From Candidatus Izemoplasma sp. (GTDB lineage Bacteria; Bacillota_I; Bacilli_A; Izemoplasmatales; Hujiaoplasmataceae): a stretch of 63,821 nt of DNA. The stretch covers positions 1-63,821 of the forward strand of contig JAIPGD010000004.1 of assembly GCA_021736305.1 (NCBI GenBank). The letters run 5' to 3'. Both the position numbers and the translations under genes were made by a program. Shown in pieces: positions 26,132-58,333 of the stretch. The notes beneath the pieces are model-generated. The model was not told where the DNA came from, searched no databases, and saw only the letters and a program-made list of their open reading frames with translations. Each line of letters starts with the position of its first letter. Positions within the stretch are counted from its first letter, which is position 1.

Positions 26132-26135
26132 TAAT

Positions 26136-27846: not shown

Positions 27847-27847
27847 A

Positions 27848-28222: not shown

Positions 28223-30411
28223 ACCCAAATAAAAAATTAGATATTAGAGAAATCTTAAAAGATTTAGATAAGTATGAACCAAGACGCAGAGGTTGGACTT
28301 GGAGAGAACCAGTTGAAAATTTGGAGTTAGAAGGAAATGTATATTCAGATGCTTCTAAATCCTTAAAGAATTCAGTACCTCTACCAGCAGCTAAGTATTT
28401 TAACAATATAGATCCACAACCAATTCAAGTAATCACTTCAGAAATTGCTTCGGGAAGATTTGAAGATGATATCCGCAGAATGCGAATGGCTGCTTGGCAT
28501 GGTGCTGATCATCTTATGGTTATAAGAACTGCTGGCCAATCACATTTTGATGGACTAATCGAAGGCACTCCTCAAGGCGTTGGCGGAGTTGCTATTACAA
28601 GGAAGCAAGTTCGTGCACAAAGAAAGGCTTTAGATATTATTGAAGATGAAGTTGGCAGGAAAATAAATTACCATTCATATGTATCTGGAGTTGCGGGACC
28701 TGATATTGCTGTTATGTTTGCTGAAGAAGGAGTTAACGGCGCTCATCAAGACCCACAATACAATATTTTATACCGCAACATCAATATGATTCGTTCTTTT
28801 GTTGATGCTGCAGAATCTAAAAAAATAATGTCATGGGGAGATATATTGCAAATTGATGGAGCTCATAACGCTAACGCTACTGCAATGGTAGCTTGGAAAG
28901 TAATGCCAGAGTTATTAGTGCAACACGCGGTTAATAGCTTATTTTCAGTAAAAGCAGGAATAAAAAAAGAAAATATTGCCTTATCTACCGTACCTCCTGC
29001 TGCTGTTCCAGCTCCTGATTTAAAAATAAACCTTCCATACGCAAAAGCATTAAGAGATTTTTTCTCAGAATATAAAATGCGCGCACAAATGAACACAAAA
29101 TATATGGAATCTTCAACAAGAGATGCAACAGTTACTCATGTTTTAAATATGATGATTTCTAAATTAACTTCTGCTGATATTCAATCAACCATTACACCAG
29201 ATGAAGGAAGAAATGTTCCATGGCATATGTATAATGTAGAAGCTTGCGACACAGCAAAACAAGCCTTAATTGGCATGGATGGTTTATTAGAAATGATTGA
29301 ACTTAAAACAGAAGGTTATTTACCTAAAATAGTCAGAGAATTAAAAGAAAGAGCTATTTTGTTTTTCGAAGAAATGATTGAAGATGGTGGTTATTTCCAA
29401 GCTGTTCAAGATGGATATTTCATTGATTCCGGAATCTATCCCGAAAGAAATGGAGACGGAATTTCAAGAGAGATTAATGGTGGTATAGGTGCTAATACAG
29501 TCTATGAAAGAGATGAAGATTATTTTGCTCCTGTTACCGCTCATTTTGGTTATAATAATATTTCACAATATAAATTGGATAAAAATGAATCGCCAAGTGT
29601 ATTAATAAATGGCTCAACCTTTGAAGATAGATCTAAAATTCAATTCATTGACGAATTAGATCCTGAAGATAATGTCAACCGTCGTTTAGCTGAAAAAGAA
29701 AAATATATAAATTCTAATTTAATCAAGCCTGAAGTTGAATGGCTAGCTGATGGAATGATTGTACTTGATATTACACTTCCAACTTCAATAAGATATGCTG
29801 AAGCTGCAGGACTTGAAATCGCAAAAAAAATGAATTTAATTGAGCCAGAAGTAATTCATAAAGAAGTATTACACATTGCTGAAGCAACCAGAATTCAGAT
29901 AAAAGGCAAAATTGACTTTGATATCGACATAAGCACATTGAAATTGCCTGAGGAACCAGATATTCTTTCTGATGAGGAAATAAAAGCCTATGTAAAAGAA
30001 CATGGTTTAAAGGTTGTAGCTGGTACTGTAGGCGAAGATGAACATTCAGTTGGATTGCGAGAAATTATTGATATTAAACATGGCGGAATTGAAAAATATG
30101 GAATTGAATGTCTTTATTTAGGAACTTCAGTGCCAATCACTAAGCTTGTTGATGCCGCTATTGAAGCAAACGCAGATGCAATATTAATGTCAACGATTAT
30201 CTCTCATGATGAAACTCATTATAAAAACATGAAAAAAACTCATCAATACGCCATCGAAAAAGGAGTTAGAGATAATATATTAATTATCGCTGGCGGTACA
30301 CAGGTTACTCCAGAATTAGCTAGGAATCAGGGAGTTGACCAAGGCTTTGGCCGTGGAACAAAAGGCCAACATGTCGCATCCTTCATAATCAAAAAATTAA
30401 AGGAAAAATAA
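28219..30411 (+). CDS. oraE: D-ornithine 4,5-aminomutase, E subunit (B12 and PLP)
   Basis: 730-residue large subunit that moves the terminal amino group of D-ornithine to give 2,4-diaminopentanoate. The TIM-barrel half holds FEDDIRRMRMAAWHGADHL. The C-terminal Rossmann domain (about 590-730) has the base-off cobalamin motif D-E-H-S-V-G near residue 607, plus LYLGTSVPITKLVDAAIE and ILIIAGGTQVTPELA. Adenosylcobalamin is needed, yet no B12 synthesis gene is visible in the window. It ends at the start of the MutL-like gene. Confidence 0.95.
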   Translation: MNPNKKLDIREILKDLDKYEPRRRGWTWREPVENLELEGNVYSDASKSLKNSVPLPAAKYFNNIDPQPIQVITSEIASGRFEDDIRRMRMAAWHGADHLMVIRTAGQSHFDGLIEGTPQGVGGVAITRKQVRAQRKALDIIEDEVGRKINYHSYVSGVAGPDIAVMFAEEGVNGAHQDPQYNILYRNINMIRSFVDAAESKKIMSWGDILQIDGAHNANATAMVAWKVMPELLVQHAVNSLFSVKAGIKKENIALSTVPPAAVPAPDLKINLPYAKALRDFFSEYKMRAQMNTKYMESSTRDATVTHVLNMMISKLTSADIQSTITPDEGRNVPWHMYNVEACDTAKQALIGMDGLLEMIELKTEGYLPKIVRELKERAILFFEEMIEDGGYFQAVQDGYFIDSGIYPERNGDGISREINGGIGANTVYERDEDYFAPVTAHFGYNNISQYKLDKNESPSVLINGSTFEDRSKIQFIDELDPEDNVNRRLAEKEKYINSNLIKPEVEWLADGMIVLDITLPTSIRYAEAAGLEIAKKMNLIEPEVIHKEVLHIAEATRIQIKGKIDFDIDISTLKLPEEPDILSDEEIKAYVKEHGLKVVAGTVGEDEHSVGLREIIDIKHGGIEKYGIECLYLGTSVPITKLVDAAIEANADAILMSTIISHDETHYKNMKKTHQYAIEKGVRDNILIIAGGTQVTPELARNQGVDQGFGRGTKGQHVASFIIKKLKEK

Positions 30412-31781
30412 TGAAAATTGATTGTTTAGTCGCTGAAATCGGTTCTACTACAACGGTTATAAATGCATTTGATGGATTATATACAGATAATCCACAATTT
30501 TTAGGCAGTGGATTTTCCTCAACTACAGTTTTAGAAGGTGATGTAAACATAGGTTTGAATCATGCACTAAATAATCTAAAAGATAAATTAAAAACCAGTA
30601 GCTTAATTGCAAAAGAAACATTTGCTAGTTCTAGCGCTGCTGGCGGTCTCAAAATGAGTGTTCATGGTCTTGTATATGATATGACAGTAAAAGCAGCTAA
30701 AGAAGCTGCTTTAGGTGCTGGAGCTAATTTAAAGATGATTACATCTGGAATATTAGACCAATATCAACTCACTGAAATTCAAAATCTTGACTTAAATATC
30801 ATTATGATAGCCGGTGGAGTTGATTACGGCGAAAGAAAAACTGCAATTGAAAACGCAAAAAAACTCGCTGAATTAAAATTAAACATTCCTATAATTTATG
30901 CAGGAAATATTCAAAATCATAATATTATTAAAGAAATATTTGGTTTTAATAACCAATTAGAGTACTTATATATTTCAGATAATGTATACCCAAAAATTGA
31001 TGTATTAAAAGTAGAAAAAACTCGTCAAATTATTCAAGAAGTTTTTCATGAACATATCATAAAAGCTCCAGGAATGTCAAAAGTAAAAAAAATTATTAAT
31101 GAAGATATAATTCCAACACCTGGTGCCGTTATGGAAAGTTCTAAACTTTTACAAAAAGCTATAGGCGATTTATTAACCATCGATATAGGTGGCGCTACTA
31201 CTGACATTCATTCAGTAACAAAAGGTAGTGAAAATATTGAAAAAATATTAATTGCTCCTGAACCGTTCGCTAAGCGAACAGTTGAAGGCGATTTAGGTAT
31301 TTATATCAATAAGGACAATATTATTGACCTAATCGGAAAAGAAAAACTTTTGAAAGAGTTAAATCTATTAGAATCAGAATATTCAAACTTAATTAAAAAT
31401 TACCAAGTAATTCCTACTAATAAACAACTTCCATTAACAGAAAGATTAACATATGAAGCATTCAATATCGCTTTAAATAGGCATAGTGGCCGATTAATTA
31501 AAATGTATAATGCCAGTGGCAAGGTTATTTATGCTGAAGGTAAAGATTTAACAAATGTTAAACATATTATTGCAACAGGTGGAGCTTTGACAAAACTTAA
31601 GAATCGAGAAGAAATCTTAAAGACTGTCATAAACACTCAAAACGAACTAATATTAAGGCCACCAAAATCAGCAACTTATCATATTGATAAAGATTATATT
31701 ATGGCTTCTTTAGGTGTTTTATCAAAGAAACATCCTAAATCAGCTTTAATTTTATTAAAAAAAAGTTTGGAGTTGATTTAA
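30411..31781 (+). CDS. MutL/GlmL-like ASKHA ATPase, aminomutase-associated
   Basis: 456 residues of the GlmL/MutL family, found with B12-dependent aminomutases. Motifs: VAEIGSTTTVINAFDG (phosphate-1 loop), LTIDIGGATTDIHSV (phosphate-2) and IIATGGALTKLKNRE (adenosine). By analogy with diol-dehydratase reactivases and glutamate-mutase GlmL it may reactivate or load the cofactor of OraSE; this has not been shown to my knowledge for the ornithine enzyme. It lies between oraE and orr with one-base overlaps. Confidence 0.85.
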   Translation: MKIDCLVAEIGSTTTVINAFDGLYTDNPQFLGSGFSSTTVLEGDVNIGLNHALNNLKDKLKTSSLIAKETFASSSAAGGLKMSVHGLVYDMTVKAAKEAALGAGANLKMITSGILDQYQLTEIQNLDLNIIMIAGGVDYGERKTAIENAKKLAELKLNIPIIYAGNIQNHNIIKEIFGFNNQLEYLYISDNVYPKIDVLKVEKTRQIIQEVFHEHIIKAPGMSKVKKIINEDIIPTPGAVMESSKLLQKAIGDLLTIDIGGATTDIHSVTKGSENIEKILIAPEPFAKRTVEGDLGIYINKDNIIDLIGKEKLLKELNLLESEYSNLIKNYQVIPTNKQLPLTERLTYEAFNIALNRHSGRLIKMYNASGKVIYAEGKDLTNVKHIIATGGALTKLKNREEILKTVINTQNELILRPPKSATYHIDKDYIMASLGVLSKKHPKSALILLKKSLELI

Positions 31782-32839
31782 TGTATCCGAGAATAAATAT
31801 TAAAATAGATAATTTAATTTCAAATACTAAAAAAATGGTTTCTTTAGCAAAAGAAAATAACATTGACTTTATTATGGCAATCATTAAAGTATTTGCCGGA
31901 GACGCCTATATTGTTAAAAAACTAGTCAATACAGGCATCTCGCATATTGGTGACTCAAGAATTCAAAACTTAAAGAAGTATAAAGAAATAAATTTGCCTA
32001 AAGTGTTGGTAAGAATTCCGATGCTTTCCGAGATTAAAGAAGTAATAAAATACTGTGATATCTCACTTAACTCTGAATTAGAAACAATTATTGCTTTAGA
32101 TTTTGAAGCAAAAGCACAAAATAAAAAACACGAAATAATTATCATGTTTGATCTTGGAGACTTACGAGAAGGTTATTATTATTCTCGACCGTTTCTTGAT
32201 GAAATTATTAAAATATCTAAATTAGAAAATATTATTATTAAAGGCATTGGCACAAATCTAACTTGTTATGGTGGTTTGGTTCCTAGTAATGAAGTTCTTT
32301 CAAGATTAGTAAAAGTTAAAGAAACCATCGAAAATAAAACAAACATAAAACTAAAAATAATTTCTGGTGGGAATTCTTCGACAGTTACACTTTTTGGTAA
32401 AAATGAAATCCCTAAAGATATTAATAACCTTCGTTTAGGCGAATCAATATTTTTTGGTAAAGAAACTTCTTATTCTACTGCTATCGAAGGTTTTAATCAC
32501 GACAATTTCACCTTAGATGCTGAAATTATCGAATGTAAAATTAAACCAAGTTTTCCGGAAGGAAAAACCAGTATTAATTCTTTTGGTGAAGAAGTTAATA
32601 TCTTAGATAAAGGCTTAATGAAAAGAGCAATTTTAGCTGTGGGTAAACAAGATGTAATTTTAGATAACCTTGAACCTATTGACTCAAATGTAGAAATAAT
32701 AGGCGGATCTTCAGATCATTTGATTTTAGATATCACAAATACTAATTATAAGCTTGGTGATATCATCTCGTTTAATGTTAATTATCCTGGCCTCTTACAT
32801 TTAATGAATTCTGATTACATATACAAGAACTATATTTAA
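31781..32839 (+). CDS. orr: Ornithine racemase
   Basis: 352 residues; PLP-dependent alanine-racemase-fold enzyme that converts L-ornithine to the D-form used by OraSE. The PLP Lys is K36 in MAIIKVFAGDAYIV. The barrel carries LGDLREGYYYSRP and ISGGNSSTV. It is the last gene of the nine-gene operon, which closes the path from L-ornithine to alanine and acetyl-CoA. The operon ends at a terminator 11 bases later. Confidence 0.92.
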   Translation: MYPRINIKIDNLISNTKKMVSLAKENNIDFIMAIIKVFAGDAYIVKKLVNTGISHIGDSRIQNLKKYKEINLPKVLVRIPMLSEIKEVIKYCDISLNSELETIIALDFEAKAQNKKHEIIIMFDLGDLREGYYYSRPFLDEIIKISKLENIIIKGIGTNLTCYGGLVPSNEVLSRLVKVKETIENKTNIKLKIISGGNSSTVTLFGKNEIPKDINNLRLGESIFFGKETSYSTAIEGFNHDNFTLDAEIIECKIKPSFPEGKTSINSFGEEVNILDKGLMKRAILAVGKQDVILDNLEPIDSNVEIIGGSSDHLILDITNTNYKLGDIISFNVNYPGLLHLMNSDYIYKNYI

Positions 32840-44971: not shown

Positions 44972-45604
44972 TTATAATTTAATTATTTCTAATAATTCTT
45001 CTCTTAAATCACTTGCTTCTTCTTTTATATCAGCTATCACATCTTGATATTCTTTTACAAGTTGTGCATCACTAAGACCTGATAAGTTAATTAAAACATT
45101 CATAGCAGAGCCTTCGATTGCAGAATGTAACATTAATACAGCTACACCTTGATCTGAAATAGTGTTTTTATTTGCTCTTTCCATAATGCCTCTAACCATT
45201 CGCAAAGACTGAATAGACAAATTACATACTTCCATAGGTACTCTAATAGTTTCCATAGTTGCTTTTTTAATTTCCATTCGTCTAATTCTTCGATCCTCTT
45301 CTGACTCTTTTGGCATTTTAAATGCCTTCATAAGTGAATTGAAAACTTTTGTATCTTCATCAATATAATCAATAAATTTTCCTTTGTTTACTCTGAATTT
45401 CTCAATAGTTTCAATAAATTCTTTTTGTTTACTCTCGTTTAATTCATTAAATTTTTTCTTTTTAAAAGTCAATTCACCAGCCATAACCATTAATCCTGCA
45501 CCATTCGCTGCGGCTAAAGCACTTACACTTCCTCCACCAGGTGCTGCAGCATTAGATGCTAGTTTGTCTAAAAAATCTGTTACTTTCATATCAACTAAAT
45601 TCAT
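44972..45604 (-). CDS. fchA: Formimidoyltetrahydrofolate cyclodeaminase / methenyl-THF cyclohydrolase family
   Basis: About 210 residues; motif [18 protein letters not shown] near the N terminus and helical body. In the hut operon it should convert 5-formimino-THF, from FtcD, to 5,10-methenyl-THF and ammonia. ATG 45604 follows AGGTG; an upstream GTG at 45613 is less likely. It is separated from hutI by one base. Confidence 0.9.
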
Positions 45605-45605
45605 A

Positions 45606-46865
45606 TTATTCACCTACTATCCTTCTTTTATCTACAACTAATTTCCCGTTTTTAAACACACTATATGTATGGTTAATTCCATAATGATATATAAAATAAT
45701 CAAGATTATTACAATCTAATAACAACAAATCAGCAATTTTACCTTCTTCTATACTACCAATTTTTTTTGAAATATCCAAGCTATATGCAGGATTTATCGT
45801 AGCAGCTGTTAATATTTCTTCAGGTAACATCATAAGTTTATTACCTGAAATTTGCATTGTCAATTGAAAGTTTTCCGAAGGTGTTGAACCCGGATTATAA
45901 TCACTTGAGATTGCTAAAGCTACACCTGAATCAATTAACTTTCTTGCGGGAGCGTATTCTTTATTTAAAAAGAATGATGTTGATGGTAATAAATTTGCAA
46001 TCGTATTTGACTTACTTAGGGCAGTTATATCTTCATCAGTTATTGCCATTAGGTGATCTATAGTTTTTGCTTTTAAATCGATACTTACTTTTGTGCCGCC
46101 GATTGAATCAATTTCATCGGTATGTACTCTTAATTTAAAACCTAATTTTTTAGCAGCTGAAAGTATACTTTTTGTTTCTTTAGCATTAAATACGCCAGTT
46201 TCACAGAACACATCCACATAATCAGCTAATTTTTCTTGTTTAATAATTTCTAAATCATCAACAACTTTTTGAACATATTCATTTCTTTTATTTTTATATT
46301 CTTTAGGTAAAGCATGCGCACCTAAATAAGTTGAATAGATATCGATTTGATGATTTTTATTTAATTCTTTTGCAACTTTTAATTGTTTAATTTCAGTCTC
46401 TAAATCCAAGCCATAGCCTGATTTAACTTCTACTGATGTTACACCAAACAAAAGCATCTCATCAAGTGATTTTTTTGCCTTATTATACAGTTCTTCAAAA
46501 CTCGCTTTTTTAGTAGCCTTTACGGTATTTAAGATTCCCCCACCTTCAGCTAGTATATCTAAATAAGGTACACCAGCAATCTTCTTACTAAATTCATGTT
46601 CTCGAGAACCACCAAAAACTAAATGCGTGTGCGAATCTACTAAACCAGGAATCATAATTTTTTGATTAGCGTCATAGATTTTAGTTTTAGGTGTTTTATC
46701 TACTTTATAATCACCAGTTGAAATTTTAATTATTTTATCATTTTCAATAACTATATATGGGTTATTAATAACTTCAACTTCGCTCATTAACTTGCCTCTT
46801 ACAGGCGGTTTATTTATTGAAGTATAAATTGTTTTAATATTATATATTATCAATCGATTTTCCAT
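45606..46865 (-). CDS. hutI: Imidazolonepropionase
   Basis: Third step of histidine breakdown; opens imidazolonepropionate to formiminoglutamate. It is about 419 residues of the amidohydrolase fold: metal ligands in DSHTHLVFGGSREHEF, GYGLDLETEIKQLK, AHALPKEYKN and SDYNPGSTPSENF. The chosen ATG 46865 lies six bases after AGGT; ATG 46871 is too close to it. Confidence 0.95.
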   Translation of the reverse strand: MENRLIIYNIKTIYTSINKPPVRGKLMSEVEVINNPYIVIENDKIIKISTGDYKVDKTPKTKIYDANQKIMIPGLVDSHTHLVFGGSREHEFSKKIAGVPYLDILAEGGGILNTVKATKKASFEELYNKAKKSLDEMLLFGVTSVEVKSGYGLDLETEIKQLKVAKELNKNHQIDIYSTYLGAHALPKEYKNKRNEYVQKVVDDLEIIKQEKLADYVDVFCETGVFNAKETKSILSAAKKLGFKLRVHTDEIDSIGGTKVSIDLKAKTIDHLMAITDEDITALSKSNTIANLLPSTSFFLNKEYAPARKLIDSGVALAISSDYNPGSTPSENFQLTMQISGNKLMMLPEEILTAATINPAYSLDISKKIGSIEEGKIADLLLLDCNNLDYFIYHYGINHTYSVFKNGKLVVDKRRIVGE

Positions 46866-46873
46866 AAACATAC

Positions 46874-47833
46874 CTACAAAAAATAATCAATTATTTTTTT
46901 AGCATCAAAATCTCTAAATTTAAGGTACTTTTTACATCCATCTACTACTTTATCAATCGACATATCTTTATCAAACTCTAGATTATTAACGCCGTAATAA
47001 TATCTTAAAGATCTTATTAGTGCATCCTTTGGAACCAAGCCAACAATTTCAGCAGAAGGAATGTCAAAACCATAACGTTTTGCTTCCATCTTCACAGTTT
47101 CAAAAATTCTATATATTGGGTTTTTCTTATAATTTAAGATGTTCATAGTTACTTGAGTGTGTCCTCTATTTTCTAAATAAACTGGTCCAGCTTGAACATA
47201 TTGATATCCGCCACTACTTTGTCTTATAGCCTTAGCAAAACGATTAGTAATTTTTTCATCATCAGTCGCAACATCAATATTATATGCTATTAAAAAGTCT
47301 CTAGCGCCAATTGCTATAGAGCCAAAAGTATCGTGTCGCTTGCTTGGACCAAAATCAGGTTTCCAGTTTGGATCTTTTATTTTTTCTTTCATACCTTCAA
47401 ATTCTCCTTTACGGATATTTGGAAGGTTTACTCGGTCATCTTTTCTAGCGGCTTCTGCATACAAAAAACAAGGTATATCATATTTATCGGCTATCTTCTC
47501 GGCTAGTATTTCACTATATTTAACACACTCTTTCATTTTAATATCGCTAATAGGAATAAATGGAATTACATCAATAGCACCCATTCTTGCATGTTCACCA
47601 GTGTGTTTATTTAAGTCTATTTCTTTTAAACAGATATTAGTTAAATCCATTAAAGCATCAATCATTTTATCAGGATCTCCAATAAGAGTAACAACTGTGC
47701 GGTTATAATCTCCATCAGCCTCATAGTTAACTAATTTTATCTCTTTGTGGTTTTCAAAAACATTGATAATTCTTTTAATTTTCGCTTGATCTCTTCCTTC
47801 AGAAAAATTCGGAACACATTCGACAATTTTCAA
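46874..47833 (-). CDS. ftcD: Glutamate formimidoyltransferase
   Basis: 319 residues. Transfers the formimino group from formiminoglutamate to THF, leaving glutamate. Motifs: ECVPNFSEGRD at the N terminus, HTGEHARMGAIDVIPFIP and NIRKGEFEGM. It is the transferase half only; the cyclodeaminase half is the separate fchA gene in the same operon. So one-carbon units are saved as methenyl-THF. Confidence 0.95.
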   Translation of the reverse strand: MKIVECVPNFSEGRDQAKIKRIINVFENHKEIKLVNYEADGDYNRTVVTLIGDPDKMIDALMDLTNICLKEIDLNKHTGEHARMGAIDVIPFIPISDIKMKECVKYSEILAEKIADKYDIPCFLYAEAARKDDRVNLPNIRKGEFEGMKEKIKDPNWKPDFGPSKRHDTFGSIAIGARDFLIAYNIDVATDDEKITNRFAKAIRQSSGGYQYVQAGPVYLENRGHTQVTMNILNYKKNPIYRIFETVKMEAKRYGFDIPSAEIVGLVPKDALIRSLRYYYGVNNLEFDKDMSIDKVVDGCKKYLKFRDFDAKKIIDYFL

Positions 47834-47835
47834 AA

Positions 47836-49851
47836 TTATTTTCCTCCTTTTTGATAATTTGCTTCTACTAATTTATCAACTAAATTTTCGTTAGCCAATT
47901 TCGGTAATGTAATAAATGAATCATTATCCAAATCATTGTATTCTTCACTTGTTGAAATGGCGTTTTTATTTCTTGCCCAAGCTCTTCTTGATACTCCAGT
48001 CATAACATCATGTAACATTGCTGTTTTTAGAATCTCGTCTTTTTCTAAAGACCCATCTAAAACCATTCCATAACCTCCATTTATGACTTTTCCAATTCCT
48101 ACACCACCGCCATTATGTAAGGTTACTAAACTCATACCACGAGCTGAATTACCTAAAGCAACATGTGTAGCCATATCAGCCATAATATTTGATCCATCCT
48201 TGATATTTGCTGTTTCTCTAAATGGTGAATCAGTACCACCAGTATCATGATGATCTCTACCAAGCATTACAGGACCAATTTCTCCATCTCTAACCATTTC
48301 ATTAAATTTTAAAGCGATTTTTAATCTTCCGTAGGCATCTTGATACAAAATCCTTGCTAACGTTCCCACAACTAATTTATTTTTCTTTGCATCTTTTATC
48401 CAATTATAATTATCTAAATCTTGGAAACGACGATTAGGATCAATACATTCCATTGCCGCCTTGTCAGTTTTGTCTAGGTCGCTTTGCTTATTTGATAAAC
48501 AAACCCATCTAAAAGGTCCATATCCATAATCAAAAAGTACTGGACCCATAATAGCTTCGACATAACTTGGCCAAATAAAACCATCTAAATCATTTTCACC
48601 ATTTTTACAAATTTCTTTTATTCCAGAATCATAGATAGCTTTCATAAATGAATTTCCGTAATCAAAGAAATATGTACCTTGATTTACAATTCCCTTAATA
48701 ACTTTGAAATGTCTTTCTAAAGTTTTATTAACTAATTTTTTAAATTTAGTAGGATTATTTTGTAATAGCTCGGTTCTTTCATCGAAAGTTACTCCAACCG
48801 GACAATACCCCCCATCATAAACTGCATGACAACTAGTTTGATCACTTAACAAATCTATCTTAACATTATTTTTTAATGCATATTCTAATAAATCAACAAT
48901 ATTTCCGTGGTAAGCAATTGCTGAAGATTCTTTATTTTCCATAGCTTTTTTTGCTAAAGAAAAAGCTTCTTCTTCATTTTTCGTAACTTCACTTATCCAC
49001 CCTTGATTTAAACGAGTTTCAATTCTAGAATAATCTACTTCTGCAATGACACCAACACCGCCAGATATTTCAATAGCTTTTCCTTGCGCTCCGCTCATAC
49101 CACCCAAGCCACTTGAAACAAATAATTTGCCAATTAAATCCTCCTTATCAGGAATACCTAACTTTATTCTTCCAGCATTAAGAAGTGTTGAATAAGTTCC
49201 ATGTACAATCCCTTGAGGTCCGATATACATCCAACCCCCAGCAGTCATTTGCCCATAATTTGCTACGCCTAAAGAAGATGCACGATTAAAGTTTTTTAAG
49301 TTATCAAATTCTCCAATCATTAATCCGTTGGTTATAATTACTCTTGGAGACGTTTTGCTTGATTTAAATAATCCTAAAGGATGCCCTGACATTATCACTA
49401 ATGTTTGTTCATCATTCATTACTTGAAGATAATTTTTAACGACATGATATTGCATCCAATTTTGAAAAACCGAACCCGTTTCACCATAAGTAACCAACTC
49501 ATAAGGATATAAGGCAATATCATTATCAAGATTATTATCAATCATTACTTGAAATGCTTTTCCTTCAACGGTATTTGCTTCATATTCATCAATAGGTTTT
49601 CCATAAATTCTTGTTTTGGGTTTAAAGCGATAACCATAAATTTTTCCTCTAGTTAATAACTCATTTAAAAACTCTGGCGCTAATTCCTCGTGCCATTTTT
49701 CTGGAATATATCTCAATGCGTTTTTAAGCGCCAATTTAGTTTCGTTTTTCGATAAACTAAAATCTCTTTTTGGTGCTCTTCTAATTCCCTTTTCAAATTT
49801 TATTGGTTTAGGAATTACTTTAAATATTCTATCTAGAGTCAAATCCATCAT
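47836..49851 (-). CDS. hutU: Urocanate hydratase
   Basis: 671 residues, the long form common in Firmicutes and relatives. NAD+-dependent hydratase converting urocanate to imidazolonepropionate. Motifs: SGLGGMSGAQGKAIEISGG (NAD), DQTSCHAVYDGGYCPVG (active-site Cys region) and GRDHHDTGGTDSPFRET. AAGGAG precedes the ATG. It follows hutH by seven bases. Confidence 0.96.
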   Translation of the reverse strand: MMDLTLDRIFKVIPKPIKFEKGIRRAPKRDFSLSKNETKLALKNALRYIPEKWHEELAPEFLNELLTRGKIYGYRFKPKTRIYGKPIDEYEANTVEGKAFQVMIDNNLDNDIALYPYELVTYGETGSVFQNWMQYHVVKNYLQVMNDEQTLVIMSGHPLGLFKSSKTSPRVIITNGLMIGEFDNLKNFNRASSLGVANYGQMTAGGWMYIGPQGIVHGTYSTLLNAGRIKLGIPDKEDLIGKLFVSSGLGGMSGAQGKAIEISGGVGVIAEVDYSRIETRLNQGWISEVTKNEEEAFSLAKKAMENKESSAIAYHGNIVDLLEYALKNNVKIDLLSDQTSCHAVYDGGYCPVGVTFDERTELLQNNPTKFKKLVNKTLERHFKVIKGIVNQGTYFFDYGNSFMKAIYDSGIKEICKNGENDLDGFIWPSYVEAIMGPVLFDYGYGPFRWVCLSNKQSDLDKTDKAAMECIDPNRRFQDLDNYNWIKDAKKNKLVVGTLARILYQDAYGRLKIALKFNEMVRDGEIGPVMLGRDHHDTGGTDSPFRETANIKDGSNIMADMATHVALGNSARGMSLVTLHNGGGVGIGKVINGGYGMVLDGSLEKDEILKTAMLHDVMTGVSRRAWARNKNAISTSEEYNDLDNDSFITLPKLANENLVDKLVEANYQKGGK

Positions 49852-49858
49852 ATTCTCC

Positions 49859-51364
49859 TTAATTTAATAAATTTATAAATGACTTTGTTTTAACTATTTT
49901 TTCTGTTTTATGAATCAGTTTATACATTATCGTATCTTCTTCTACAAAATCTACTTCTTTTCTAACATAATCATATATACTTTTTGTTTTAGTACTAAGT
50001 AATTTAGGATTATTAAAATCTATTGCTTGTAAAGCAGTTAATAATTCCATTGATAAAACTTTATAAGTGTTATCAACAACTTCCATTGCTTTTCTTGCGG
50101 CATGATTTCCCATAGAAACATGATCTTCTTGATTCGCAGATGATGGTATTGAATCAACACTTGCAGGGTGAGATAATACTTTATTTTCACTCACTAAAGA
50201 AGCTGCGCTGTACTGAACAATCATAAAACCAGAATTAATTCCTGGCTTCTTCACTAGGAAAGGAGGCAAACCGTTGCTTAAATTAGCGTTAACCATCCTC
50301 TCTAAGCGTCTTTCTGATATATTGGCTATTTCACTCATAGCTATTGCTAAATAGTCCATAGCAAGCGCTAAGGGCTGTCCATGGAAATTACCAGCACTAA
50401 TAACCTTTTCGCGATCAACAAAGACTAAGGGATTATCCGTTACTGCATTCATTTCTTTTTCTATAATATCGTAGACATAATTTAAAGTATCTAAACTTGC
50501 GCCTAAAACTTGTGGCGAACAACGTAAAGAATAGGCATCTTGTACACGCAATTCTCCTTGTTTAGTGGTTAATTTTGAATCTTTAATGATTTCTCTTAAT
50601 CTTTTAGCTACATAAATTTGACCTGATTGATTTCTTAATAAATGTATCTCATTATCGAAAACATCTTCAATACCTCTTAATGCTTCCATAGTCAAAGCCA
50701 ATGTATACATTGAGAGATGAAATGCATTTAGGGCTTCAAAAATAGTTATGGCCGCAATACTAGTAATAGCTTGAGTTCCATTAATTAAAGCTAATCCCTC
50801 TTTGGCAGCTAATCCTTCAAGTGGTGTTATTCTAGCTTTTTTTAAACCGGTTAATGCATCATATTCTTTACCTTGAAATATTACATCTCCTAAGCCTATT
50901 AAAGGAAGAGCCATATGCGATAATGGTGCTAAATCACCACTTGCCCCTAAGGAGCCTTTTGCATATACAATGGGTAATAGATTTACATTTAAAAATTCTA
51001 CCATTTTTTCAATCACTTGATAGCGAATACCACTGTAGCCTTTAATTAAAGCATTAACTCTTAATAAAAGCATACCCCTAACAACTGCTTCAGAAAGTTT
51101 TTCCCCAATACCACAAGCATGACTCTTTATTAAGTTTTCTTGTAGTTGATTAGTTTTATCTTTACTAATAGAAACATCACTTAACTTCCCAAATCCAGTA
51201 TTTATACCATAGGTTGGTACGCCTGAATCTAGAACCTTTTGGACATATGCTTGTGCTTTATTTACTTTTTCAATACTTGATTTTGAAATTTCTACTTTTT
51301 CTTTATCTATAACAACTTTTATGAATTTTTCTAAGTTTAAATTATTACCATTTATAGTTACCAA
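49859..51364 (-). CDS. hutH: Histidine ammonia-lyase
   Basis: First step of histidine breakdown; eliminates ammonia to give urocanate. It is 501 residues. The Ala-Ser-Gly that forms the MIO cofactor is in GSLGASGDLAPLSHMA; other signatures are YGINTGFGKLSDV, RCSPQVLGA and NPLVF. The likely start is TTG 51364 (family N terminus MVTINGNNLNL), five bases behind GGTGG; in-frame starts upstream lie inside that site. It heads the hut operon. Confidence 0.95.
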   Translation of the reverse strand: MVTINGNNLNLEKFIKVVIDKEKVEISKSSIEKVNKAQAYVQKVLDSGVPTYGINTGFGKLSDVSISKDKTNQLQENLIKSHACGIGEKLSEAVVRGMLLLRVNALIKGYSGIRYQVIEKMVEFLNVNLLPIVYAKGSLGASGDLAPLSHMALPLIGLGDVIFQGKEYDALTGLKKARITPLEGLAAKEGLALINGTQAITSIAAITIFEALNAFHLSMYTLALTMEALRGIEDVFDNEIHLLRNQSGQIYVAKRLREIIKDSKLTTKQGELRVQDAYSLRCSPQVLGASLDTLNYVYDIIEKEMNAVTDNPLVFVDREKVISAGNFHGQPLALAMDYLAIAMSEIANISERRLERMVNANLSNGLPPFLVKKPGINSGFMIVQYSAASLVSENKVLSHPASVDSIPSSANQEDHVSMGNHAARKAMEVVDNTYKVLSMELLTALQAIDFNNPKLLSTKTKSIYDYVRKEVDFVEEDTIMYKLIHKTEKIVKTKSFINLLN

Positions 51365-51387
51365 AATAACCACCAACTTTCTCTTAT

Positions 51388-51437: not shown

Positions 51438-51471
51438 AGAAAAAAAGCTGCTAAAATGAATTAGCAACTTT
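51438..51471 (-). terminator. Terminator after the FMN-binding-like lipoprotein gene
   Basis: Arms AAAGCTGCTAA (51444-51454) and TTAGCAACTTT (51461-51471), with one G-U pair, followed on the minus strand by seven T. It insulates the hut promoter. Confidence 0.8.
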
Positions 51472-51485
51472 TAATATTAAATTAA

Positions 51486-52493
51486 TTATTCTACCTTTGC
51501 AAATACAGCGCTTAGTACTTCTTCGTAAGCACTAGTTGTTACCGAAACGCTTGATAAAGAATCTACGCCTTCAACAGCAAATGATGTTGTCCAACCGTTT
51601 TCAACGATATAATCAGTAATCATGTCTGCTTGTTCAAACCATTCAAGTTTTTCATTATCATCTAACCAAGTTTCATATTCAGCAATTGTTGGAGTATCGT
51701 CTGTAGCAGAGTATGCTCCCCAATGCATTTTATATTCATAACCTAATTCTTGTTTAGAGTTTTCGTTCCAAGCAAATTCAAAAGTGTCGTCAGTATCATC
51801 TTCTGGAGTATCTGCCCCAGCTGTTTGAGTAACTGTAGATTGTAAAACATCGATTTCTAAGCTTTCGATTTCTCCGTCTTCATTCATTTCTAATGTCGCC
51901 CAAGTTACTTGAGGTTTACCATAACTCATTGAAGTTTGGTAAGCTTTTGTAATCCCGTCTTTTGCTTGTTGAACAGCTTCAGCTGCTAAAGCGGTGTAGC
52001 CACCATCTTTAATTGTAACATCAGTTTCAGCATCAATAGCAACATTAGTTATAACGTTATCTTCATTTACTTCTACTGAATCATAACCATTTTCAAGCCA
52101 ATGAGCTTCAATTGCTTCAGCTTGAACATACCATTCAGCTACTGCGCCACCATATTCAACCATATTATAATCATCACCAAGCTCTTTTTTAGTTTCTGCA
52201 TTCCATTCAAATGTATCACCATCTGATTGTAATGCATCAATGTAGTAAGAAACAATTTCATCATTTACGATTGTAACTGTTACACTTGTAATCATTGGAG
52301 CTCCATAATGTGCTCCGATTTCAAAAGCAGTGAATTCTCCGTCTACTACGAATTCTCTAACTTCTTCCGTTGTTGTTGTTGTTGTAGCTTCTGTTGTTGT
52401 TGTAGCTTCTGCTGTTGTAGTATCGTCACCATTACATGCAACAAAACCTAACATTAAGAAAGCTACGAGTAAAACCATTAATAATTTTTTCAT
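51486..52493 (-). CDS. Lipoprotein with two FMN-binding-like repeats
   Basis: 335 residues. A signal peptide with lipobox-like FVAC (Cys near 20) leads into a Thr-rich linker (about 24-45). Then come two tandem domains of about 145 residues with matching parts: F-x-W-N, K-x-ELG-x-x-Y-x-M, WxxQAxx, and C-terminal VTIKDGGYTALAAEA / VSVTTSAYEEVLSAV. These resemble extracellular flavin-binding lipoproteins (PplA/COG4939 group) related to the RnfG FMN domain. The threonine sites are altered: D-A-E-T-D-V-T and D-S-L-S-S-V-S. It follows rnfB by 86 bases with its own promoter. Redox function is plausible, not proven. Confidence 0.75.
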   Translation of the reverse strand: MKKLLMVLLVAFLMLGFVACNGDDTTTAEATTTTEATTTTTTEEVREFVVDGEFTAFEIGAHYGAPMITSVTVTIVNDEIVSYYIDALQSDGDTFEWNAETKKELGDDYNMVEYGGAVAEWYVQAEAIEAHWLENGYDSVEVNEDNVITNVAIDAETDVTIKDGGYTALAAEAVQQAKDGITKAYQTSMSYGKPQVTWATLEMNEDGEIESLEIDVLQSTVTQTAGADTPEDDTDDTFEFAWNENSKQELGYEYKMHWGAYSATDDTPTIAEYETWLDDNEKLEWFEQADMITDYIVENGWTTSFAVEGVDSLSSVSVTTSAYEEVLSAVFAKVE

Positions 52494-52579: not shown

Positions 52580-52885
52580 TTAAGATTTTTTTTCATTTTT
52601 AAAGTAGTTATCTAAGAAGGCTTGCAACTCTTTTGCAGCGTCCTTTTTAATCGGTTTACAATCAAATACAACACTCTCTTTATTTAAAAGGGCTATAGCC
52701 ATTTCTTTGCACCCAGGATGTCCGCATGCGCCACAATTATATTTAGGTAATAAATCAACAACTTCATCAATTGTAGGATCTTCTTTTACATAAAATATAA
52801 CTGAAACTAAATTTATTAAAAGCCCTAGAATAAATCCTATTCCTGCTAATATACCTGCTGGTAAAATAATGCTTACAAGATCCAT
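52580..52885 (-). CDS. rnfB: RnfB, short form without ferredoxin domain
   Basis: Only 101 residues. It contains the N-terminal membrane helix (about 8-32) and the first [4Fe-4S] site, YNCGACGHPGCKEMA plus the Cys of FDCKP. It then ends in a Lys-rich tail (NEKKS). The usual RnfB continues with one or two ferredoxin modules (roughly 190-330 residues in total), which are absent here. Six-frame reading of the following 86 bases shows no cluster motif, so this is not a simple frameshift. It overlaps rnfA by 13 bases, as is usual in the operon. Confidence 0.85.
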   Translation of the reverse strand: MDLVSIILPAGILAGIGFILGLLINLVSVIFYVKEDPTIDEVVDLLPKYNCGACGHPGCKEMAIALLNKESVVFDCKPIKKDAAKELQAFLDNYFKNEKKS

Positions 52886-53460
52886 TCAATAAGCCCTCCA
52901 AATCTAGAAAAAATAATCGCTAAGATTGCTGCGACAATTAAGGCAATTGGCGTTCCTTTAAATGCTTTTGGAACTGGCGCAAAATCTAATTTTTCTCTTA
53001 TCATTGAAAATATATACATTACAAACAAGAAACCTAGGCCGATAAATCCTGTATAAACTAACATTTCTACAAAATTATGTCCATTAGTAATATTTAATAC
53101 AGCAACACCTAATATTGCACAGTTTGTTGTAATTAAAGGTAAATAAATACCTAATCCTTTATATAATGAGGGAGAAACTTTTTTAAGAAAAGTCTCAACC
53201 ATTTGTACTAGAGCTGCAATAACCAAAATAAATGCAATAGTACGCATATAAACTATATCAAAAGCTTCTAATACATAGGTATATAAAGCCCATGTAACTG
53301 TTGATGAAATAAGCATCACAAAAATAACCGCTAAACCCATTCCTAATGCAGAACTTCTTTTAGTCGAAACTCCAATAAAAGGACATATTCCTAAAAATTG
53401 TGTCAAAATAATGTTTTGAAGTATAAATGCCGAGAAAGCGAGAGCAATTAAATTATCCAT
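52873..53460 (-). CDS. rnfA: Electron transport complex subunit RnfA
   Basis: 195 residues with six hydrophobic segments. Begins MDNLIALAFSAFILQNIILT and has the family loops FLGICPFIGVS and TNCAILGVAV. With RnfE it forms the inverted-topology pair at the membrane centre that holds a [2Fe-2S] cluster (Cys in GICPF and TNCAI). It overlaps rnfE by eight bases and rnfB by 13. Confidence 0.95.
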   Translation of the reverse strand: MDNLIALAFSAFILQNIILTQFLGICPFIGVSTKRSSALGMGLAVIFVMLISSTVTWALYTYVLEAFDIVYMRTIAFILVIAALVQMVETFLKKVSPSLYKGLGIYLPLITTNCAILGVAVLNITNGHNFVEMLVYTGFIGLGFLFVMYIFSMIREKLDFAPVPKAFKGTPIALIVAAILAIIFSRFGGLIEWIL

Positions 53461-54130
53461 TAGATTTCACTTCCTTTTCTTTTTCAGCCATTCTAGCTTT
53501 ACTTCGGTTCGTAATTGCAATTATAATCGCTAAAATAAATCCTAATGAAATAAATGCACCAGCTGGCTTAATAAACATATCAATTGGTTCAATCATTAAA
53601 AAATCAAAGATAAATCTCAAATCAATTTGTAAACTTTTCCAAATCGTTAATACTCCTGCACCTAAGAATTCTCTGAAGATACTGATAAGCATAATTGCTA
53701 ACCCAAATCCAAGAGACATACCTATTCCATCAATCACTGAATCAATTGGTTTGTTCTCTGATGCAAATGCTTCAGCTCTACCTAAAATAATACAGTTTAC
53801 AACTATAAGTGGAATAAAAATACCTAAAGAGTTATATAACTCTATTAAATAAGCATGCATTATCATTTCAACCACAGTTACTAATGTTGCAATAACAACA
53901 ATATAAACTGGAATTCTAACCGGTTTAACTAAATCAGCTAACATTTTATTATGCATTATTAACGAAATAATTAAATTAGACAATACTAATACAAAGATTA
54001 CAGCAATCGTCATTCCAATTGCGTTTTCTAAAGAAGTGGTAACTGCAAGAGTTGGACATAAACCAAGTAGAGCGACAAAAATAGGGTTTTCACTAAAAAT
54101 ACCTTTTAAGAAATTTTCTTTTTTAGTCAT
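53453..54130 (-). CDS. rnfE: Electron transport complex subunit RnfE
   Basis: 225 residues, homologous to RnfA with six membrane segments. Cys are in ALLGLCPTLAVTT and VNCIILGRAEAFA. The N terminus is Lys-rich (MTKKENFLKGIFSENP). It overlaps both neighbours by eight bases. With RnfA it carries electrons across the membrane. Confidence 0.94.
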   Translation of the reverse strand: MTKKENFLKGIFSENPIFVALLGLCPTLAVTTSLENAIGMTIAVIFVLVLSNLIISLIMHNKMLADLVKPVRIPVYIVVIATLVTVVEMIMHAYLIELYNSLGIFIPLIVVNCIILGRAEAFASENKPIDSVIDGIGMSLGFGLAIMLISIFREFLGAGVLTIWKSLQIDLRFIFDFLMIEPIDMFIKPAGAFISLGFILAIIIAITNRSKARMAEKEKEVKSNG

Positions 54131-54659
54131 CTACTTCACCCCCCATGTCATTTTCAACTCTTTCAGCAATAATAGAAAAAATATCTCTCATAGCGTTAGA
54201 TGTAAAAGTTGCTCCAGCCATTTGATCAAAATCATCTAAAGAATTTGCTGGCGAATCCTTTGAAAGGAATTCATAATCTGTCACTCCCGATCCAGGTCCT
54301 GACTCGGTATGTGAGATTACTTTATAATCTTGAATAGTTAAATCATTTTTAACAACAACTAAAACATTTATTAATCCGCCATATCCTTGTGAACTAACCG
54401 AGTAAGCTAAAGCTAAAATCTCTTCTGAATCAGCTGATTCTTTTATAATGAAAATAGAGTCAATTTTACCATAATCAAATTCTTCAATATCAATAAAATA
54501 CTCATCTGGACTATAATATTCTTCAATCGCCTGGGTTTTTAATCTCAATTCTTCAGCAGCAATTTTATCAGCGGTTAACCCATTCACTACCGCTAATAAT
54601 AAACCACAAATCAAACCAAACATTAGTAACACTAAACCTGATTTTAATCCATTATTCAT
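54123..54659 (-). CDS. rnfG: Electron transport complex subunit RnfG
   Basis: 178 residues: N-terminal signal anchor (about 8-28) and one extracytoplasmic FMN-binding domain. The flavinylation site is near residue 158, QMAGATFTS, fitting the S/A-GAT-x-T consensus; the covalently linked Thr is present. Upstream is TESGPGSGVTDYEF, also typical of RnfG. An ApbE-type flavin transferase should exist elsewhere in the genome. Confidence 0.93.
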   Translation of the reverse strand: MNNGLKSGLVLLMFGLICGLLLAVVNGLTADKIAAEELRLKTQAIEEYYSPDEYFIDIEEFDYGKIDSIFIIKESADSEEILALAYSVSSQGYGGLINVLVVVKNDLTIQDYKVISHTESGPGSGVTDYEFLSKDSPANSLDDFDQMAGATFTSNAMRDIFSIIAERVENDMGGEVDD

Positions 54660-54661
54660 TT

Positions 54662-55828
54662 TTAGCCACCTCCATTCAAAGTAGCATCTAATCCATCAAT
54701 CCATTCAATCACAGCTTCCATAGCGTCTGATGTAACTGTTGCAGCTGCAACAGTATCGATGATTACATCATTGTTGAGGTATTCATCAATATATTGTTCC
54801 TCAACTGCAGGAACATCATTTCCGGTATATCTAGCATTGTAATCTGCATCATAACTTTCATGAGTTTCTGTTAAAACAATATTTGTTATTGCTGTTTCAG
54901 AATCATTTAAAGTAACAGTTACAGTAATTCCTTGACTAGAGTAACCAAAAACTTTTACAACAATTTCATGATTTGTTTCGTTATAACTCATATCTTCTAC
55001 AACATGATTAATTATTTTAGAGTCTTCTACATAAACTTTAATATTATCTTTAACTTCTTGAGGTGGTTCAACACCAGAAGCTAAACCTTGATAAGTAAAA
55101 TCACTATCTATATATATACTAGCAACATTATTATCTCTACCAAAGGTAACATCTGCAATTAACGGATAATCAACCATTGTTGAAAAATCATAATTATAGT
55201 ACACATCATTAATAGTTAACTGTAAAGAAGGAATTTCAAATTCAAAATCGGCAGCATACAATTCGCGTGCAAATTTAACCCCTTGTTCAAAAGCTCTTGA
55301 TGAATAAGTTGCACCAGCTTTAGAATCAATCGAAAGGTCTATAACATCTAAATTCTTATTTTCAAATTGATTAAAAAATGATTCATCCAGTAAGTTATAA
55401 AACTGACCCGCTACAGAAACAGTTTCGTTATGGCTGATAACCTTAATATTAATCAATTCATTATTTTCGGTTGAAATTGCGTATGCACTTACTAAACCAT
55501 CTTCACAACCAAAAGTGCTAAGAACATAAATAACTGCTACAAGATTTTCATTATCATCTCTAACATAATATGCCTCTATGATTTCTGGCTGATATTCTCT
55601 ATCTTCTGATAATATAGTATAAGTAACATCTACTTCAGTTGGTTCAAACGTTTCTAAAGTTTTACCATTTTCTACTAACTCAAGCAATGAATCTCTATAT
55701 CGTTCTTCTTGATGCACAGAGATTTGTTCGGTCATATAACGTGAAAACATTCCACCAAATATAAAGATGATTAATAAAAGCAAGATTGAAACTATCAATA
55801 CACCTTTTGTTTTTAAAATATTTTTCAT
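54662..55828 (-). CDS. Second RnfG-like protein with two FMN-binding domains
   Basis: 388 residues: signal anchor (about 10-30) plus two extracytoplasmic FMN-binding-type domains. The first has a canonical site, SKAGATYSS (near residue 170); the second ends TVAAATVTSDAMEAV (near residue 370), with Gly replaced by Ala but the Thr retained. Such a protein is not part of the standard rnfCDGEAB set. It lies between rnfD and the normal rnfG. ATG 55828 overlaps the rnfD stop (ATGA) behind CAGGTGAT. Confidence 0.85.
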   Translation of the reverse strand: MKNILKTKGVLIVSILLLLIIFIFGGMFSRYMTEQISVHQEERYRDSLLELVENGKTLETFEPTEVDVTYTILSEDREYQPEIIEAYYVRDDNENLVAVIYVLSTFGCEDGLVSAYAISTENNELINIKVISHNETVSVAGQFYNLLDESFFNQFENKNLDVIDLSIDSKAGATYSSRAFEQGVKFARELYAADFEFEIPSLQLTINDVYYNYDFSTMVDYPLIADVTFGRDNNVASIYIDSDFTYQGLASGVEPPQEVKDNIKVYVEDSKIINHVVEDMSYNETNHEIVVKVFGYSSQGITVTVTLNDSETAITNIVLTETHESYDADYNARYTGNDVPAVEEQYIDEYLNNDVIIDTVAAATVTSDAMEAVIEWIDGLDATLNGGG

Positions 55829-57030
55829 AGTATCACCTGCCAAGCATTAATAAATGACAGATTTGCAGTATACATACTACCTGAAGCAACTAATGTATAT
55901 ACAACTAAAATTAATAAAACACCTATAAGAATTGATGCGTATGCAATACCAGGTTTTTTAGTTAATTTTGTACGTATAATTCCGGAATAAGTATCAATTG
56001 GAATAGCAAAAATATTCATAACAATTAATGATGTTCCAACACCTTCAGGTAAACTACCAACAAATCTAAACAACACTGTCAATACCCCTAAGAAAAGCGC
56101 AAAGAATATTTTTCCTAAAGGATTAGTTGGTGTAGTTACAGGTTCAGTTGCCATATAAACAGCAGCAAACATAACTCCTCCAGTTAATATTGAATAGGTT
56201 GGGAACCAAACACCAGAATCACCAGCAATAATTCCTATAAGCCAAGAAATAACAAAAACTGTTCCAATATAAATAACTGGTGTAAACCATTTAATAACTT
56301 TTCTATAAGTTAACCAAAGAAAACCAATTAATATTGCTAAAGCAGAAGTCTCCCCTAAAGCACCAGGTATTGTACCTAAGAAGAAATCCCAAAGATTCCC
56401 ATAAGGTTCAACAAGCGCACTATAAGATAAAGCATCTCCTGATCCTCTAAAAGATGATAAAACTCCAAGTGGTGTAGCTCCTGCATATGAATCAATAATA
56501 ATTTCTGAGCCATTAAATATAACGTTAATATCAGTAACAATCCCACTAAATGTAAAGCCTACAATAGCATAGCCTAATAAAGCAGGATTAAATACATTAT
56601 TTCCAAAACCACCAAACAACATTTTCCCAACGATTGTAGCTATAAAAGCCGCAAACATCAATATCCATATCGGTGTATATAGCGGAAGTAATAAAGCTAA
56701 AATCACACCAGGAATAATTGCGAAAGATGTATTTAATTTTCTTAATACACCCTTAAAATCTCGTTCTTTTTTATCTGAAGTAATATAAAAGAAAAGACCT
56801 TCCATTACATATGCTAACAATCCGCCTGTAATAATAAAGAATAATGGATATAGCATTTCATAAACATTAATATTTCCATCTAAATAAACTTGAATTCCAT
56901 TCTTATACCAACTAAATAAAATCACCGGCATTAAACCAATTAAAAAATCACGCATAATTCTCTTTGTGTTTTCGCCTTTTTCATTAGCAATTCTTAAGAA
57001 CGGGGCTTTCCCACCAGCAAATCTCGCCAT
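55825..57030 (-). CDS. rnfD: Electron transport complex subunit RnfD
   Basis: 401 residues with about nine hydrophobic segments. Covalent FMN site DSYAGATPLG (near residue 187). N terminus MARFAGGKAPFLRIAN. It is the membrane flavoprotein between RnfC and RnfG; RnfD/NqrB are implicated in ion movement. Confidence 0.94.
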   Translation of the reverse strand: MARFAGGKAPFLRIANEKGENTKRIMRDFLIGLMPVILFSWYKNGIQVYLDGNINVYEMLYPLFFIITGGLLAYVMEGLFFYITSDKKERDFKGVLRKLNTSFAIIPGVILALLLPLYTPIWILMFAAFIATIVGKMLFGGFGNNVFNPALLGYAIVGFTFSGIVTDINVIFNGSEIIIDSYAGATPLGVLSSFRGSGDALSYSALVEPYGNLWDFFLGTIPGALGETSALAILIGFLWLTYRKVIKWFTPVIYIGTVFVISWLIGIIAGDSGVWFPTYSILTGGVMFAAVYMATEPVTTPTNPLGKIFFALFLGVLTVLFRFVGSLPEGVGTSLIVMNIFAIPIDTYSGIIRTKLTKKPGIAYASILIGVLLILVVYTLVASGSMYTANLSFINAWQVIL

Positions 57031-57031
57031 A

Positions 57032-58333
57032 TTACTTAGCTCCTTTCTTTAGTAAAGCTTTACCTTTACTAACTGCATCTGTAATTTCAACATGTGATGG
57101 ACAGATATATGAACATAATCCACATTCCATACATTTACTTGCATCTAGCAAATCTAAAAGTCTTAAATCTTTTCTTTCATAAGCTTTTTTAATTTCTGTT
57201 GGTGTCAAATAAACTGGGCAAACATCCGCACATTTTCCACAGCCTAAACACTCAGGATAATCTCTTATCTCAAAAGGTTTTACTATAACTGCGCCTAAGG
57301 TATCGTTAACTACAAGGTCATCGATTAAAATTGCGCGTCCTGTCATTGGACCTCCGGCGATATAGTTTGCTTGCATAGGATCTAAACCTTCTACATAACC
57401 TCCGCACTGATCAATTAATTCACTTACTTTAGTTCCAAGTGGAACAAAGAAAGTTTTAGGTTCTTTAACGCCTTCACCTGTAATACTAACTGGACGTGAT
57501 ATAAGTGGAATATTTCTTTCAACAGCATCTGAAAAAATAATAGCTGTTGCAGAATTATTAACAATCACGCCAATTTCAGCTGGTAAAGTTGAATATGTTT
57601 TTCCGGTAACTTGTTCAACAATATATTTTTCCCATCCAGCTGGATAAATATCTTTTATAGGGAACAATTCAATGTTTGAATATTTTTCTAAATAAGGCTT
57701 TAATACTTCTACTACTTTAGAATTATAGTTTTTATAGGCAATCACTATTTTATTCGCATCTGCGGCACGCTGCATATAAGTAGCGCCCTTTATCAATTTT
57801 TCAGCAAATCTAATGATAAATTGATAATCACAAGTTAAATATGGTTCGCACTCAACTGCATTAATAATCACAGTGTGAATATCTTCTTTGGTTTGATACT
57901 TGATATAGCTTGGAAAACCAGCTCCACCTAATCCAGTCAAACCTGAATCCTTCATTATTTCTACTAACTCTTCGCGAGTTAATTCTTTCACATTTTTCAC
58001 TTCTTTGATGCGATCATCAAGTTGATTCTTAAAATCATTTTTGATTTCTATTGCCTCAACCATTTTTCCACTTGAATGCCAAACTTTTTTAAAACTTTTT
58101 ACTTCACCGCTAATACTAGCGTGTGATGTTATCGCGCCAAATCCACCGACTTCAGCAACGACTTGTCCTATTTTCACACTATCTCCAACATCTACTTTAG
58201 GTTTTAATTTTAGATGTCTTTGAATTAATGGAATGTAAACTGTATCAGGATTTAAGTAATCGATTAAAGGATGTTTTTTACACATATCCTTACGTCCATC
58301 AATTTGTATTCCTTTCGCATTATGAAAAATCAT
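57032..58333 (-). CDS. rnfC: Electron transport complex subunit RnfC
   Basis: 433 residues. Cytoplasmic FMN/NAD(H) subunit: GLTGLGGAGFPSYIKY (NADH/FMN region) and two [4Fe-4S] sites near the C terminus, CLGCGKCADVCPV and CMECGLCSYICPS. It should oxidise or reduce NAD(H), passing electrons to or from RnfB. It is the first gene of the operon, with ribosome site GGAGGA. Confidence 0.96.
   Translation of the reverse strand: MIFHNAKGIQIDGRKDMCKKHPLIDYLNPDTVYIPLIQRHLKLKPKVDVGDSVKIGQVVAEVGGFGAITSHASISGEVKSFKKVWHSSGKMVEAIEIKNDFKNQLDDRIKEVKNVKELTREELVEIMKDSGLTGLGGAGFPSYIKYQTKEDIHTVIINAVECEPYLTCDYQFIIRFAEKLIKGATYMQRAADANKIVIAYKNYNSKVVEVLKPYLEKYSNIELFPIKDIYPAGWEKYIVEQVTGKTYSTLPAEIGVIVNNSATAIIFSDAVERNIPLISRPVSITGEGVKEPKTFFVPLGTKVSELIDQCGGYVEGLDPMQANYIAGGPMTGRAILIDDLVVNDTLGAVIVKPFEIRDYPECLGCGKCADVCPVYLTPTEIKKAYERKDLRLLDLLDASKCMECGLCSYICPSHVEITDAVSKGKALLKKGAK

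Follow-up and report, generated by a model that had tools for sequence, protein, structure and literature searches.

A 63,821-nucleotide stretch of Candidatus Izemoplasma sp. (assembly GCA_021736305.1, contig JAIPGD010000004.1; hereafter the window, to which positions refer unless a locus is named) encodes an Rnf complex whose RnfB is reduced to 101 residues: one membrane helix and one four-cysteine Fe–S site, followed by a stop. Seven rnf genes occupy positions 52580–58333 of the minus strand, with neighbours overlapping or at most 2 bp apart, and their order is rnfC-D-G2-G-E-A-B, exactly as in the initial annotation of this DNA. Pfam and NCBIfam recognise RnfC, D, G, E and A, and place a protein with two FMN_bind domains (G2) between D and G. 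An eighth gene that the initial annotation did not include, for a lipoprotein that we call LP (51486–52493, minus strand), closes the cluster 86 bp downstream of rnfB. What the window encodes is a variant Rnf, not a new kind of system. The short-RnfB form is real and widespread, and it is apparently undescribed in the open literature.

The short rnfB gene (52580–52885, minus strand) gives a match to the Pfam FeS domain at residues 46–78 (PF04060, E = 7.3e-12), with the four cysteines at positions 51, 54, 59 and 76. The Pfam search found no Fer4 match in this protein, which bears out the earlier description of a helix and first Fe–S site without ferredoxin modules. The short-RnfB profile aligns to residues 4–90 of the 274-residue RnfB in PDB entry 7zc6 (Clostridium tetanomorphum) and to residues 4–94 of the 333-residue RnfB in PDB entry 9eri (Acetobacterium woodii). 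Ferredoxin docking has been assigned to the C-terminal domain of RnfB, which holds two to seven clusters in the known structures (PMC12174285). The earlier statement that the electron-entry part has been lost is thus right for the ferredoxin modules, but RnfB is better described as reduced to the membrane-proximal cluster. No second RnfB, full-length copies included, turned up when targeted queries and stretch-by-stretch searches were applied to the window genome (1.52 Mb, 83 contigs, 95.8% complete).

The short length is not peculiar to this genome. RnfB was matched in 56 of 61 genomes (the window genome and 60 relatives) and was short in every one. A wider sample of the class comprised 149 genomes, 85 of them with a match; one was dropped, its sole match being a hydrogenase-type protein. 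Among the remaining 84, 77 have a short RnfB with a single site (an open frame of up to about 150 residues; tallied by eye), four have an RnfB of 183–194 residues and three, all of one genus, have an RnfB of 267–277 residues that includes the ferredoxin modules. Three of the four intermediate proteins were read; they have a second FeS domain, still without a ferredoxin module. RnfBs of 184–192 residues at loci L227 (8452–9030), L228 (12004–12558) and L229 (8625–9188) carry two tandem FeS domains, the second with CTTCGxPGC, and no ferredoxin module. Short RnfBs account for 16 of 48 named public loci, including those of Acholeplasmataceae, Erysipelotrichaceae, Solobacterium and Candidatus Izemoplasma; the remaining 32, which belong to Clostridia and other phyla, encode RnfBs of 223–696 residues (two run off the contig end). 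In all 67 short RnfBs compared, the four cysteines of the first site are kept and the roughly 20 later cysteines are absent, so the remaining domain is under selection. A sequencing error at the rnfB end, which the initial annotation had raised as a caveat, is rejected by the class-wide survey, because the relatives and the wider class likewise have short RnfBs. The chance that an error of sequencing or assembly, or a pseudogene, produced the 3′ end is practically negligible: the same length recurs in dozens of other genomes, single-contig ones included, and the short-RnfB clusters are phylogenetically coherent.

This coherence was seen in a tree of RnfA and RnfE from 110 clusters, where the 67 clusters with a short RnfB and the three with a double-FeS RnfB split from all 40 with a full-length RnfB (FastTree support 1.0), the full-length set having been chosen for its resemblance to the short-RnfB profile and not as a balanced sample of all Rnf. 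The same split between short and full-length RnfB was obtained with IQ-TREE (SH-aLRT 98.5, UFBoot 99). The short-RnfB Rnf is monophyletic in these trees, and the short RnfB has the appearance of a single inherited subtype, not of repeated decay. As judged from the sampled sequences, it is a trait fixed across the Izemoplasma/Acholeplasma/Erysipelotrichaceae branch. The three class members with a full-length RnfB group with the full-length clusters, which suggests that they acquired it horizontally. One cluster labelled Defluviitaleaceae (L205), with a 108-residue RnfB, falls inside the short-RnfB clade, either through horizontal transfer or through mislabelling of a metagenome-assembled genome. 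A 99-residue short RnfB also occurs on a contig labelled Brevinematales (L144, 8962–9261), where no other rnf gene was found nearby.

The missing ferredoxin domain was sought elsewhere using the C-terminal part of a full RnfB as the query, with the full-length exceptions as positive controls (E = 3e-39 to 5e-41). In the window genome this search picked up no detached RnfB C-terminus, just short Fer4 matches (5e-9 or weaker), and no C-terminal half was found in the short-RnfB genomes, which again gave only short Fer4 matches (about 1e-10 or weaker). With no gene resembling the RnfB C-terminus and strong controls, a split rnfB gene was rejected. RnfC and conserved neighbouring genes were likewise checked for additional Fer4 modules that might compensate, and none was found in the window's family. 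The module might still be provided in trans: a dedicated soluble subunit with a ferredoxin domain, its gene lying elsewhere, would then be permanently bound to RnfB. The many Fer4 proteins in short-RnfB genomes speak for this. We nevertheless consider it unlikely, as nothing like the RnfB C-terminal half emerged from searches in which the controls did, and as the clusters of the window's family contain no conserved Fer4 gene other than rnfC.

All other redox sites of the path through RnfB, RnfA/E, RnfG, RnfD and RnfC are present in the sequence (all genes on the minus strand). RnfC (57032–58333; 433 residues; TIGR01945, 325 bits against a cut-off of 245.95) has intact NAD/FMN motifs, GLGGAGFP and NAVECEP, and two intact Fer4 motifs. 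RnfD (55825–57030; 401 residues; PF03116, E = 2.2e-75) keeps its flavinylation motif, AGATP. RnfE (53453–54130; 225 residues; TIGR01948, 220.5 bits) and RnfA (52873–53460; 195 residues; TIGR01943, 235.6 bits) both score above their cut-offs and contribute Cys25 and Cys113, and Cys26 and Cys114, respectively, to the [2Fe–2S] cluster; these four cysteines are conserved in 110 of 110 clusters. The RnfG next to G2 (54123–54659; 178 residues) is normal, as previously stated, with one FMN_bind domain (PF04205, E = 2.5e-11) and AGATFT within the motif DQMAGATFT. Among the features of Rnf membership, the cluster cysteines of RnfA/E, the RnfC sites, the flavin motifs of RnfD and RnfG together with ApbE, and the helix and first site of RnfB are all present; the C-terminal ferredoxin domain of RnfB is absent, in the window and in 67 of 67 short RnfBs, and has no separate gene. 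Because of this absence the system, assigned from its predicted RnfA, C, D, E and G and the N-terminal part of RnfB, is filed as an Rnf complex of a variant kind and not as a typical member. To say that it functions as an Rnf is a different claim, and one that goes further than typical membership.

The window genome encodes PFOR, a group-A6 [FeFe]-hydrogenase (HydA) with a NuoF-like partner (HydB), and a 55-residue 2[4Fe–4S] ferredoxin, the stand-alone ferredoxin for which a check had been proposed. ApbE is present in two pieces, at the ends of contigs C53 and C20, whose sequences overlap. The c-subunit of the F-type ATP synthase reads GIGQG...VAETTGLY, which we take to be a Na+-binding signature. 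Together, PFOR, the hydrogenase, the ferredoxin and the c-subunit point to a host in which ferredoxin is made and used, and make Na+ coupling likely.

Two proteins outside the membrane add to this core. G2 (54662–55828, minus strand) has 388 residues from its ATG, an N-terminal membrane helix and two FMN_bind stretches (PF04205, E = 4e-14) with the motifs DSKAGATYS and DTVAAATVT, in agreement with the double-FMN protein with AGAT-x-S and AAAT-x-T described in the initial annotation. With two FMN_bind domains and their motifs it qualifies as a multi-flavinylated RnfG, although AAAT, its second motif, departs from the canonical form. In the AlphaFold2 model of G2 the N-terminal half matches RnfG of PDB entry 7zc6 (Foldseek probability 1.00). 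G2 occurs in 17 of 17 clusters of the family, shortened in two of them to about 234 residues and one domain. LP (335 residues, with a lipobox-like VACNG) consists of two tandem repeats (hhalign E = 1.3e-31) related to PDB entry 2kzx (E = 2e-8); in the repeats of LP the SGAT-like motif is degenerate (AGVT, in AGVTIK, or similar). LP lies 3′ of rnfB in 15 of the 17 family clusters and, in two other families, in four genomes. LP has no Pfam match and a whole-chain fold search with it gave only noise, so neither route placed it as a clear FMN_bind member, and comparing the profiles of LP and G2 gave no significant match. At locus L049 (11636–14125) the lipoprotein has expanded from two repeats to about six, in an LP homologue of 829 residues. 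In loci L050, L052–L056, L058 and L063, RnfG and one G2 domain often have SGVT, AGVT, AGST or SSAT as the motif versus SGAT, with the threonine kept. A second route, leading to outside acceptors, has been proposed for multi-flavinylated RnfGs (PMC8238504), and multi-FMN proteins, once produced, proved to bear covalent FMN (PMC10339131). By analogy, G2 and possibly LP may form an accessory flavin arm outside the membrane, as an optional branch.

In the known complexes RnfA/E receive electrons from the C-terminal polyferredoxin by way of the flexibly tethered one-cluster domain of RnfB (PMC12174285). In its sequence, the short RnfB corresponds exactly to that domain plus the membrane helix. We find it probable, with considerable room for doubt, that the complex is a working Rnf, set apart as a subtype by its short RnfB, and that it remains an ion-pumping ferredoxin:NAD+ oxidoreductase, with ferredoxin delivering electrons directly to RnfB and a flavin arm outside. 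In the simplest working model that we infer, PFOR would reduce soluble ferredoxin, which would dock directly on the one-cluster domain and so replace the missing polyferredoxin relay. Electrons would then run from RnfB through RnfA/E, RnfG, RnfD and RnfC to NAD+, with Na+ exported to feed a Na+-type ATP synthase, and electrons would also move between the complex and G2, possibly with LP, some of them going on to an external acceptor. Two observations weigh against this model: the NCBIfam models for rnfB, rnfD and rnfG score below their cut-offs (slightly so for RnfD, with 196 bits against 207 for TIGR01946), and, while ferredoxin-like open reading frames of up to 122 residues occur in 14 of 17 short-RnfB genomes, the other three have no small ferredoxin by the family used.

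The initial annotation had instead taken the loss of RnfB modules together with the gain of flavin domains to mean altered electron partners or direction, for example toward an external acceptor. In such a rewired complex electrons, for instance from NADH via RnfC, would exit through the extracytosolic flavin proteins and RnfB would be a remnant. The conservation of LP and of G2, with its two FMN_bind domains, in the family clusters favours this, as does the proposed feeding of outside acceptors by multi-flavinylated RnfGs. RnfB is not decaying, however, its four cysteines being invariant in 67 of 67 proteins; short RnfBs occur without G2 or LP in other families; and the NAD module is intact and ferredoxin metabolism present. 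We regard rewiring as possible but quite improbable, and do not favour it. A change of partners or direction finds no support in the intact RnfC motifs, RnfA/E cysteines and RnfD flavin site, nor in a genome with ferredoxin-producing and ferredoxin-using enzymes and a stand-alone ferredoxin; what stands of the idea is a plausible side path to an external acceptor. Both the loss in RnfB and the gain of flavin domains are present, but the link between them is unsupported: across the class, short RnfBs are found both with and without G2 or LP.

Relatives contain rnf clusters with other partners. In four Izemoplasma-type clusters (L079, 5285–10839; L089, 3241–8664; the first cluster of L082 and the second of L083) cydA and cydB are followed by rnfD-G-E-A-B with a short RnfB and no rnfC; from their gene content we predict a ferredoxin:quinone module tied to cytochrome bd oxidase. 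As these clusters lack rnfC and keep the short RnfB, the latter probably acts in them as the electron port on the cytosolic side, which speaks for the model of direct ferredoxin docking. A third type (L066, 4265–12250, and similarly L067, L081, L084, L086, L088 and L146) has an [FeFe]-hydrogenase-like gene (562–628 residues) directly upstream of rnfC; its RnfC lacks GGxGFP and ECEP and keeps two Fer4 motifs, and its RnfG has about 630–670 residues where read. The hydrogenase-like protein of L066 has TSTCPATN, departing from the usual TSCCP. One might tentatively see in all of this a separate Rnf subtype with the one-cluster RnfB as the electron port of an ion-pumping ferredoxin:acceptor core, fitted with exchangeable acceptor modules and an outside flavin arm, a broader picture that we hold to be possible but short of probable. 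The other end would be an NAD-reducing RnfC in the window, an RnfC without NAD/FMN motifs beside the hydrogenase-like gene, or, with no RnfC, the cytochrome bd oxidase.

Around the cluster, a terminator-like hairpin lies just 3′ of LP (51443–51472, minus strand); it is a weak call, as the consensus scan gave a number of sites close to that in shuffled sequences. The same scan showed no such hairpin between rnfB and LP, and the promoter scan gave no more sites than the shuffles. Genes for arginine/ornithine fermentation and histidine degradation flank the rnf cluster (23143–32839 and 44972–51376; annotated by eye from translations), which suggests that the host is an amino-acid fermenter.

We found no report of a truncated RnfB in the open-licence literature, although one may exist elsewhere. 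Papers on Izemoplasma and Peloplasma (PMC8397711, PMC11122141) give an ordinary RNF in their available parts, and the difference therefore appears to have been overlooked. Should the direct-ferredoxin model hold, a whole bacterial branch would do without the RnfB C-terminal domain, which would then be dispensable, and the membrane-proximal cluster could accept electrons directly. The outcome would be a minimal Rnf, of use in structural studies and in tracing the divergence of NQR and Rnf.

The window shares with the Rnf complexes of C. tetanomorphum (7zc6) and A. woodii (9eri) the gene order rnfCDGEAB, apart from G2, as well as the RnfA/E cysteines, the RnfD flavin motif, the RnfC NAD/FMN and Fer4 motifs and the RnfB helix with its first Fe–S site. 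It differs in that RnfB stops at about residue 95, without a polyferredoxin domain, and in the added genes for G2 and LP. Like the multi-flavinylated RnfG clusters of Meheust et al. (2021; available part of PMC8238504), it has more than one extracytosolic FMN_bind domain in the rnf cluster, but its additional domains are encoded by a second gene that accompanies a normal rnfG; no mention of RnfB truncation was found in that part of the paper. LP resembles the FMN-binding lipoproteins of the PplA/cAD1 type in being a secreted lipoprotein with two tandem domains and in matching 2kzx, which carries SGAT; unlike them, it has AGVTIK or similar in place of SGATxS/T and is linked to rnf genes, not to Listeria-type electron-transfer genes. 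Na+-NQR likewise has a homologous membrane core with an input subunit unlike the polyferredoxin RnfB, its NqrF also having one helix and a small mobile Fe–S domain (PMC12174285), whereas the window has no NqrF-type FAD domain and its RnfC keeps the NAD/FMN and Fe–S motifs.

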